A DNA stretch of 64,000 nt, taken from assembly GCA_020444175.1 (NCBI GenBank), contig JAHLLM010000005.1, forward strand, positions 68,210 to 132,209. Direction: 5' to 3'. Below are positions 8,053 through 63,698 of this stretch, in pieces; positions within the stretch are counted from its first letter, which is position 1; each line of letters starts with the position of its first letter. The notes beneath the pieces were generated by a model. The model was not told the DNA's origin. It ran no database searches and was given only the letters and a program-made list of their open reading frames with translations. The position numbers and the translations under genes are program-made. The stretch comes from Desulfobulbaceae bacterium. GTDB taxonomy: Bacteria > Desulfobacterota > Desulfobulbia > Desulfobulbales > SURF-16.

Positions 8053-8126
8053 AACCACGAAGGACACGAAGAGCACGAAGATTTCGTTTTAAATTTTACT
8101 TCGTGCTCTTCGTGTCCTTCGTGGTT
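8053..8126. repeat. Perfect 28-bp inverted repeat AACCACGAAGGACACGAAGAGCACGAAG with 18-nt loop
   Basis: Arms 8053-8080 and 8099-8126 are exact reverse complements. Confidence 0.95.
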
Positions 8127-60666: not shown

Positions 60667-60737
60667 AACCACAAAGGCACAAAGAACACAAAGAGTCTAT
60701 CTTGGGATTTCTTTGTGTTCTTTGTGCCTTTGTGGTT
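60667..60737. repeat. Perfect 27-bp inverted repeat AACCACAAAGGCACAAAGAACACAAAG with 17-nt loop
   Basis: Arms 60667-60693 and 60711-60737 are exact reverse complements. Confidence 0.95.
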
Positions 60738-62428
60738 GTCAGGCTTTTGGGGGAATTGATCACTGTATTGTAAGGATAAAACGTATTCGAAATCTAACCG
60801 GAAATATTCGTGGTCTGAAGCAGGCCCAGTTAAAACGACTTGAACGCCTCGGCAACCGGAGAGTGGCTGCAGAGCAGATCGTTTCTCCTGAAATGGCGCG
60901 GGAACTTGCTGATATCTCTTCCGATGTAGGGCGCCAGGTGGGTGTCCTGCTGAGTCGTTCAGGCAAGGTTGAAACCGTTATCGTCGGTGATCGTAAAAAA
61001 ATTGTCATCCCGGCTCTTTCCCAGCTGCGTTCCACCAGCGGCCGCCTGAAGGGATTGCGCTGTGTTCATACCCATCTGGCAGGGGAGGACCTGACAGAAG
61101 ATGATTTGATGGATCTTCTTTTTCTGCGACTCGATCTCATGGCAATGATCAAGGTGGTTGACAGCCTTCCCGAGCGTCTTTATGCTGTCCATCTTGTCCC
61201 GGTTCCCGTCCAGGGAAAAAGTTGGCATTTTTTGCCCCCCGTCGTTCCCTCCCAGCAAAAGACGAATTTTCGTGAGCTGATTGCGGCCCTTGAAGATGAG
61301 TTTGCCCGTCAGCGTTCGTCCAGGGAAATTGATGCCCAGGACCGGGCAATACTGATCAGCGTCACCACACAGTTGAAAAGCAGAGCCCAGGAGTCTATGG
61401 ATGAACTCAAGGAGCTGGTCCGCTCAGATGATGTGGAGGTGATGGATACCTTTATTCAGCGACGGGACAGAATTAATGCCAAATTTATCCTCGGGAAAGG
61501 AAAGCTTGGTGAAATTATGCTGTCCGCTCTCAAGCATAATGCTAATCTGCTTATTTTCGATCAGGAACTGAATCCATCCCAGGTCAGGTCAATCACGGAT
61601 CACACGGAATTACGCGTCATTGACAGAACCCAGCTTATTCTTGATATTTTTGCCCGGCGTGCGCTCAGCCGTGAGGGGAAGCTGCAGATTGAAATGGCTC
61701 AGCTCAAGTATCTGCTACCCCGCCTTGGACAGCGTGATGACGCGCTGTCCCGTTTAACAGGGGGGATAGGCGGCAGGGGACCGGGTGAAACTAAACTGGA
61801 AGTTGACAGGCGCAGGATCAATGACCGATTGACTAATCTTGGTAAGCGTTTGAAAAAAGTTGGAAAAGAACGTCATCATCGCCGTTCCCGGCGTCGAAAA
61901 AAAGACTTGCCGGTTATCTCCCTTGTGGGGTACACAAATGCTGGGAAGTCAACGCTGTTAAACAGTCTGACGAGCAGCAATATCCTGGCTGAAGACAAGC
62001 TTTTTGCCACCCTTGACCCGACGAGCCGTAGATTGCGTTTTCCAGAAGACGTTGAGGTTATTATTACTGATACCGTCGGCTTTATCAGAGATCTGCCTGA
62101 TGAGTTGCTCCAGGCTTTTAAAGCAACGCTTGAAGAACTGCATGAGGCTGATCTGCTGGTTCATGTGATCGATATAAGCAATCCTCGATTTGCAGCGCAA
62201 ATGAAAGTGGTGGATGAGTTGCTCTATGAACTTGAACTTTCCGACATAGCTAAAATGCTCGTTTTCAATAAAATTGATCTGGTGGATCCCGCCTTTCTCC
62301 GGGAGGAGCTTGCGAGACACGACGCAGTGGCTTTGTCTGCACTGGATCCTTCGACTTTTGGCGGTTTTCTTGATAGAGCAAGAAAACAGATTCTCAAAAA
62401 ATGGGATGGATATTCCAATGAAGCATGA
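60713..62428 (+). CDS. hflX: GTPase HflX (true start uncertain, probably ~60760-60790)
   Basis: RLERLGNRRVAAEQIVSPEMARELADISSDVGRQVGVL, GGIGGRGPGETKLEVDRRRI, SLVGYTNAGKSTLLNSLT. Confidence 0.93.
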   Translation: MCSLCLCGCQAFGGIDHCIVRIKRIRNLTGNIRGLKQAQLKRLERLGNRRVAAEQIVSPEMARELADISSDVGRQVGVLLSRSGKVETVIVGDRKKIVIPALSQLRSTSGRLKGLRCVHTHLAGEDLTEDDLMDLLFLRLDLMAMIKVVDSLPERLYAVHLVPVPVQGKSWHFLPPVVPSQQKTNFRELIAALEDEFARQRSSREIDAQDRAILISVTTQLKSRAQESMDELKELVRSDDVEVMDTFIQRRDRINAKFILGKGKLGEIMLSALKHNANLLIFDQELNPSQVRSITDHTELRVIDRTQLILDIFARRALSREGKLQIEMAQLKYLLPRLGQRDDALSRLTGGIGGRGPGETKLEVDRRRINDRLTNLGKRLKKVGKERHHRRSRRRKKDLPVISLVGYTNAGKSTLLNSLTSSNILAEDKLFATLDPTSRRLRFPEDVEVIITDTVGFIRDLPDELLQAFKATLEELHEADLLVHVIDISNPRFAAQMKVVDELLYELELSDIAKMLVFNKIDLVDPAFLREELARHDAVALSALDPSTFGGFLDRARKQILKKWDGYSNEA

Positions 62429-63077
62429 TGTCCCCAAACGCTGTACGCTTTGTCTTTCTTTTTCAGGGAACCGTCCTCACAATGACTGTGTGGTTTGCCG
62501 GGATCAGCATATGGCAGAGACTTTTCTCTGTGATATTGTAAGAAAAAACACGAAGCCAGGTTCCTCTTTTGCCTGCCAGACCTTTCGGCCTCGTCTTACT
62601 CTGGTGGGACAGAAAAAATCTCACTTAGATGATGAAATTCCGGTCTGCCAGGACAAAAACACCTATTTTGCCGAAGTTGTTCGTTCCATAGCATCGTCTG
62701 GTTGCGGGAGTGGGGGATGCGGTGCCTGCCAGTCATCAGGGAAAACAGGCGTTTCCTCCCGAAAATTTCATATTGTCTGGAGCGTGTATCAGAGAAGAGC
62801 AGTTTTTGCCGACCCTGGTCCCTATGTCTCCTTTTTGCACGATATCTTCATGTCCTGCGGGCGTCTCATGGCAGGAAAAGCCTTACTGGTCTGGCTGGCA
62901 AACGATCACCTGCATCTTTATCTTGAAATTGGCACAAAGGAAAAAATGGAACACGTTGTTGAGGATTTACAGGGACTGGTTCAGGACGCCCTGTTTCAGA
63001 AATTTGAGCAGGTCGCCAAGGAGTTTGACCAGACAAAGATGTGGGAAAGCGACTATTTTTTTGAAGAAATCGTGTAA
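62406..63077 (+). CDS. Cys-rich N-terminal domain + IS200/Y1 HUH-transposase-like domain (possible domesticated protein)
   Basis: CTLC/CVVC/CGSGGCGAC cysteines; FHIVWSVYQRRAVF...LVWLANDHLHLYLE matches Y1 transposase HUH region; MWESDYFFEEIV resembles LWxxxYFVxTV; starts inside hflX. Confidence 0.65.
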   Translation: MDIPMKHDVPKRCTLCLSFSGNRPHNDCVVCRDQHMAETFLCDIVRKNTKPGSSFACQTFRPRLTLVGQKKSHLDDEIPVCQDKNTYFAEVVRSIASSGCGSGGCGACQSSGKTGVSSRKFHIVWSVYQRRAVFADPGPYVSFLHDIFMSCGRLMAGKALLVWLANDHLHLYLEIGTKEKMEHVVEDLQGLVQDALFQKFEQVAKEFDQTKMWESDYFFEEIV

Positions 63078-63083
63078 AGTCCT

Positions 63084-63698
63084 ATGCTTTTATGTGAAAA
63101 AAATACAATAAAGGGAATCGTGAGAAGTCTGATCCTTATATTGCTGGTGCTTTTTTCTTCATTTCCCCTGCAGGCAAAAGAAACAGGGCAGGTCGGCGAT
63201 GTTGCCCTTGTAAATTCAGAAAAGGACCTTCTTCTTTATTTCACAGTTCATAATGCTTTTACCCCTGAGATGGAAAATGGCATCAAGAACGGTATTCCGG
63301 TTACCTTTACTTTTCTTGTCAAGCTTTTTCAGGTCAATAACGGCTCCCTTGATGGTGAAATGCTCTCCTCCTCTTTTGACCATACTCTGCAGTATGATTC
63401 GTTGAAACAGGAGTACAGGGTGGATATGGAGGAAAATGGAGTCACAAGTGTTGCTGTTGCCGATCTCGGAGAAGCGAAGGCGCTTATGTCTGAGATTCAT
63501 GATTTTAAACTTGCGGATCTGGCTTTACTGACCGAAGGCCGGAAATATGGCGTCAAAGTAAAAGCCAAACTCGCTAAAAAAAAGCTGCCCCTGAATTTTC
63601 AATATATTATTCCCTTCTGGCAGCTTTGGAAATTCGAGACCGACTGGAATACAGTGACCTTCACCTATGGAAGCCCAGGACAATCTAAAACGAGATGA
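63084..63698 (+). CDS. DUF4390-type exported protein
   Basis: Signal-like N-term; VALVNSEKDLLLYFTVHNAFTPEMENGIKNGIPVTFTF; precedes NtrY-like kinase. Confidence 0.72.
   Translation: MLLCEKNTIKGIVRSLILILLVLFSSFPLQAKETGQVGDVALVNSEKDLLLYFTVHNAFTPEMENGIKNGIPVTFTFLVKLFQVNNGSLDGEMLSSSFDHTLQYDSLKQEYRVDMEENGVTSVAVADLGEAKALMSEIHDFKLADLALLTEGRKYGVKVKAKLAKKKLPLNFQYIIPFWQLWKFETDWNTVTFTYGSPGQSKTR

Follow-up and report, generated by a model that had tools for sequence, protein, structure and literature searches.

What does an HUH protein do once it has lost the tyrosine with which such enzymes cut DNA? The stretch of 64,000 nucleotides analysed here (the window) raises this question, as it carries, directly behind the ribosome-rescue gene hflX, a gene for a cysteine-rich protein with an IS200/Y1-type HUH domain that ends before the catalytic tyrosine helix (Table 1). 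The open reading frame was confirmed at 62406-63077, and its 223-aa product contains CTLC, CVVC and CGSGGCGAC, together with DHLHLYLE, so that the Cys motifs lie ahead of the Y1-type pattern as the initial annotation had described. Orthologs favour the second ATG as the start codon, giving a 219-aa protein; the 23-nt overlap with hflX that had been described therefore holds for the first ATG, but shrinks to 11 nt for the ortholog-favoured one.

Table 1. Features of the Tyr-less HUH gene and its locus (window positions)
Feature	Position	Strand	Description
hflX	60788..62428	+	upstream; 11-nt overlap with HUH gene (23 nt from ATG 62406)
Tyr-less HUH gene	62418..63077	+	219 aa from conserved ATG 62418; 223 aa from ATG 62406
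N-terminal six-Cys segment	62442..62576	+	residues 9-53; C-x2-C-x11-C-x2-C-x10-C-x14-C; putative zinc-binding
DKxxY motif, Tyr83	62652..62666	+	predicted low-confidence helix before first HUH strand
Second Cys cluster CGSGGCGAC	62703..62729	+	limited to the window's own family
Y1/IS200-type HUH domain	62751..63074	+	runs to strand W..YF.E.I, where the stop codon lies, without Tyr helix
Altered metal-site strand D163-H164-L-H166-L-Y168-L-E170	62904..62927	+	conservation in 21 members
DUF4390 gene	63084..63698	+	downstream neighbour in gene-bearing family genomes

The HUH domain and its C-terminal end

The HUH/Y1 fold, first read from the sequence pattern, is borne out by profile searches and by structure prediction. 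The Pfam Y1_Tnp profile matches residues 116-220 of the 223-aa protein (E 5.8e-11, with 43 bits where the cut-off is 23), and it matches all 21 members of the protein family described below; the score against the NCBIfam transpos_IS200 equivalog was 39.7 bits, under the cut-off of 55. By phmmer and profile search against the PDB, IS200-type TnpAs were the sole convincing matches. The AlphaFold model gives the HUH domain a pLDDT of about 80-90, and its top Foldseek matches are the TnpAs of ISDra2 (TMt 0.72), S. tokodaii and IS608, whereas the RAYT structure 4er8 is matched far more weakly (TMt 0.43 and 0.41). The protein is thus a genuine Y1/IS200-type HUH domain preceded by an N-terminal six-Cys segment.

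The window protein stops right past the W..YF strand and so lacks the helix with the catalytic Tyr and the Gln that serves as metal ligand; the Y1_Tnp profile is covered at positions 2-104 of 121, and its uncovered end is the Tyr helix. The same holds across the family. Neither Y-x3-Q/N nor Y-x4-Q follows the HUH motif in any of the 21 members, the RAYT-type Y-x3-NP motif was not found in them, and all stop within a few residues of the YF.E.I strand, their C-termini lying 50-59 residues past the D of D-H-x-H versus 72-102 in TnpAs. The 34 ordinary TnpAs used for comparison were selected by a pattern of which the Tyr motif is a part, and its presence in 34/34 is therefore true by construction; among six further TnpA hits outside this pattern, those displayed had an intact Tyr helix or were stop-interrupted or contig-cut, and one (L088) gave no segment to inspect. 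That diverged genomes have this C-terminal end in common makes an error of sequencing unlikely, and because the DUF4390 gene starts 6 nt past the stop codon in the window, the Tyr helix is not concealed downstream in another frame. The missing helix that had been noted for the window protein is therefore a property of all 21 members. Since the cutting Tyr is gone from every relative found, the protein cannot move DNA in the usual way, and Tyr-mediated transposition by it is very unlikely.

Distribution, selection and genomic context

In the window's own family of sulphur bacteria, 15 of the 22 genomes, the window genome counted, hold full-length orthologs, 38-59% identical, whereas the order's other families yielded none (258 genomes); the named ortholog records are Desulfobulbaceae/Desulfurivibrio-type MAGs. 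Beyond the order, a full-length member is present in four out of about 390 genomes sampled from the phylum and on two further MAG contigs (L046 and L047) whose records state Deltaproteobacteria only; the contig search gave no matches with a single sequence and found members with an alignment. The 21 members are thus 15 from the family and six remote ones, at least four of the latter from other families of the phylum. Architecture and C-terminal end are alike in the 15 full-length family members and the six remote ones, so that chance does not account for the resemblance. In an unrooted tree that leaves out the RAYTs, the 21 members lie on one side of a branch from the 34 ordinary TnpAs, with support 100/100.

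A truncated, decaying IS200 transposase gene would account for an IS200-type domain cut off before its catalytic helix, and ordinary IS200-type TnpAs are numerous in the order, one of them lying in the same genome with an intact Tyr motif, YIKNQ (L002, G000:C51:18255-18551), where it offers a ready comparison to the Tyr-less protein. However, the 21 diverged members end alike and share an added Cys segment, dN/dS is 0.10-0.23 (from 13 of the 14 closest pairs, the pair with saturated dS being left out), which indicates purifying selection, and the gene is single-copy, in the window genome (where other matches are weak) as in the other family genomes that carry it, and keeps a conserved place. 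Decay is hardly credible on these grounds, and was rejected by selection, synteny and the common C-terminal end. No IS ends were found at the window gene, in agreement with the initial annotation, the scan being one for perfect hairpins of at least 14 nt, and no second copy turned up in the genome; the phage, plasmid and viral collections gave no match to the protein at the sensitivity used.

In the family loci with enough contig, the gene order is selB-hflX-HUH-DUF4390-kinase (contig ends cut the comparison in L039, L042, L043 and L045), and in the seven genomes without the HUH gene it is selB-hflX-DUF4390-kinase, with DUF4390 directly after hflX. The overlaps between hflX and the HUH gene measure 4, 11 or 23 nt and recur across several genera, which upholds the operon-like place behind hflX proposed earlier. 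Presence and absence map to one change on the HflX tree, a gain or a loss alike, at a branch with bootstrap 50 and SH-aLRT 100. Therefore, from purifying selection, conserved order and this one gain or loss, the HUH gene is a stable host gene, and the domestication suggested at the outset has good support.

The remote members occupy neighbourhoods other than the hflX locus, so that the function is not defined by the link to hflX. In G521 (L115:306-3516) the HUH gene is third in an hsdM-hsdS-HUH run with 4-nt overlaps, from which it seems to be co-translated with the specificity subunit of a type I restriction-modification system. HicAB adjoins the gene in G303; in G577 (L116:6370-11396) it lies between dinB (Pol IV) and lexA, with pRiA4b ORF-3-like and small endonuclease-like genes, both assigned by eye, adjoining it; AAA_21 and RloB lie downstream of it in L046; and pyrG is beside it in G590. 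Restriction-modification, toxin-antitoxin or SOS genes next to remote members could mark the protein as a stress or defence component, and these neighbourhoods are suggestive, though too few for a claim. They amount to four of six remote loci with no recurring partner, none of the PADLOC models rose above noise (one member at E 0.014), and the main family holds the gene in the housekeeping context of hflX; a stress or defence role is accordingly judged improbable.

The altered metal-site strand and the mode of action

Although the Tyr helix is lost, the metal-site strand is not. D163, H164, H166 and Y168 are invariant in the 21 members, and E170 is kept in 19, with D or N in the remaining two. 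In ordinary TnpAs, the place of Y168 is taken by Leu or Phe in 28/34 and by Tyr in 1/34, and that of E170 by Ser in 25/34 and by Glu in 3/34. The five positions fall in one strand predicted by AlphaFold with alternating side chains, and from this alternation they probably have the former active-site face in common. The best reading of the strand is that the metal site is retained but altered, as D-H-x-H-x-Tyr-x-Glu, forming a predicted metal or phosphate site.

In the N-terminal segment all six Cys are likewise invariant (21/21), with the spacing in Table 1 read from the window protein. Neither Pfam nor the PDB gave a significant match to this segment; three members touch the DZR_2 double zinc ribbon of Pfam at a non-significant E of about 0.05, and its pLDDT in the AlphaFold model is below 50. 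To judge from the Cys pattern, the segment probably binds zinc. In the second cluster, CGSGGCGAC, two Cys are invariant in the 15 family members, and the cluster is absent from the remote ones.

We propose, with moderate confidence, that the protein is a host-domesticated IS200-type HUH domain with a six-Cys segment, which binds single-stranded nucleic acid and is no longer a transposase. Its targets, on which it would act in trans, would be hairpins or single strands of DNA and possibly of RNA, held by the face of the HUH sheet, with its bound metal, and by the Cys domain; covalent tyrosine cleavage would not be involved, and the protein would serve as a host regulator or accessory factor that has given up the transposase function. 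The likeliest mode of action would be binding without cleavage. One point tells against pure binding, namely that both HUH His and the new Tyr and Glu are conserved more strictly than binding needs, and the D-H-x-H-x-Y-x-E strand leaves room for a Tyr-independent activity.

Such an activity could be that of a metal phosphodiesterase or nuclease, in which the HUH metal centre is re-tuned as H-x-H-x-Y-x-E and water or another nucleophile replaces the tyrosine. The near-invariance of the five residues, the rarity of this Tyr and Glu in TnpAs and the expected common face would suit it, but the third metal ligand of TnpAs, a Gln or Asn, has disappeared together with the helix, and the conservation of the strand may come from folding or binding; we know of no HUH hydrolase with Tyr-independent metal chemistry. 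This possibility is considered unlikely.

Another way to restore cleavage would be a rearrangement. In the relaxases TraI and TrwC the catalytic Tyr is found on the N-terminal side of the HUH motif, and the HUH protein likewise has a conserved Tyr ahead of the first HUH strand, that of a DK(x)xY-like motif, in 21/21 members (the DK in most), inside a predicted helix. This Tyr is a candidate for the role only. From one subgroup to another, its distance to the first strand varies by about 12 residues, it is followed by no shared Gln, Asn or His ligand, and confidence in the helix is low; moreover, the protein has no third His, unlike the relaxases, and these were not among the top PDB matches of either model by Foldseek. 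Replacement of the lost Tyr in a relaxase-like manner is thus very improbable. Taking both kinds of rebuilt active site together, the H-x-H-x-Y-x-E strand or the Tyr of the preceding helix, a host enzyme that processes ssDNA or RNA by chemistry new to HUH proteins appears rather unlikely.

Candidate targets and relation to known HUH proteins

For the proposed binding protein, the hairpins of the window had been put forward as possible partners. There are two perfect ones, at 8053-8126 and 60667-60737, with 28-nt arms. Each is built from three CTTYGTG units whose one- or two-base spacers are free, and although the two sequences differ from one another, both are self-complementary throughout. 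They belong to a repeat family of CTTYGTG units, and the sequence CTTCGTGTCCTTCGTGG was not found in the literature searched. The pattern was searched for in 45 genomes and in 395 genomes. Its exact form occurs in 21/395 genomes of the phylum, with up to 25 counts per genome and 0 counts for a reversed-pattern control. The HUH gene is absent from 19 of these 21 genomes, and the hairpin is absent from five of the seven gene-bearing genomes of the phylum (Fisher p = 0.048); within the family, with one mismatch allowed, the hairpin is present in 6/15 gene-bearing and 1/7 gene-less genomes (Fisher p 0.35). A scan around the family orthologs, out to about 4 kb and for perfect hairpins of at least 14 nt, which leaves shorter IS-type hairpins outside, gave none that flanks the gene consistently, and no REP-like arrangement was seen at the gene. 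In G590 a copy about 125 bp away from the HUH gene looks accidental. The suggested partnership with the window hairpins therefore finds no support, given the hairpin genomes without the gene and the want of a consistent flanking copy. Some other hairpin could still be a target of the protein.

With the TnpAs of IS200/IS605 (ISDra2, IS608, and 2ec2 of S. tokodaii), the protein has the HUH fold, D-H-hydrophobic-H and the W..YF strand in common; in contrast to them, it lacks the Tyr/Gln helix, IS ends and multicopy spread, and adds the six-Cys N-terminal segment and the Tyr and Glu on the metal-site strand. The genes of the TnpA-REP/RAYT proteins are likewise chromosomal HUH genes that occur in single copy and show no IS features, but Y-x3-NP and flanking REP are not seen here and the match to 4er8 is weak. 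Y1 proteins have been divided into three classes and twelve subclasses, with TnpA-REP/RAYT as class 2, and the D-H-L-H and W-E/D signatures of the HUH protein resemble those of subclass 2.2 (Quentin et al., 2018; PMC6006769, Table 1). In the same work, Y1 sequences without the HuH or Y motif were set aside as probably non-functional (Quentin et al., 2018). A limited search of the literature on HUH, Y1 and domestication did not find a Tyr-less Y1 family.

Here, a Tyr-less Y1 protein is conserved across genera and families of a phylum, with the metal-site His kept. If confirmed, this would represent host adoption of the TnpA half of IS200/IS605, alongside the better-known adoption of TnpB, and the family would test the need of HUH chemistry for its tyrosine.
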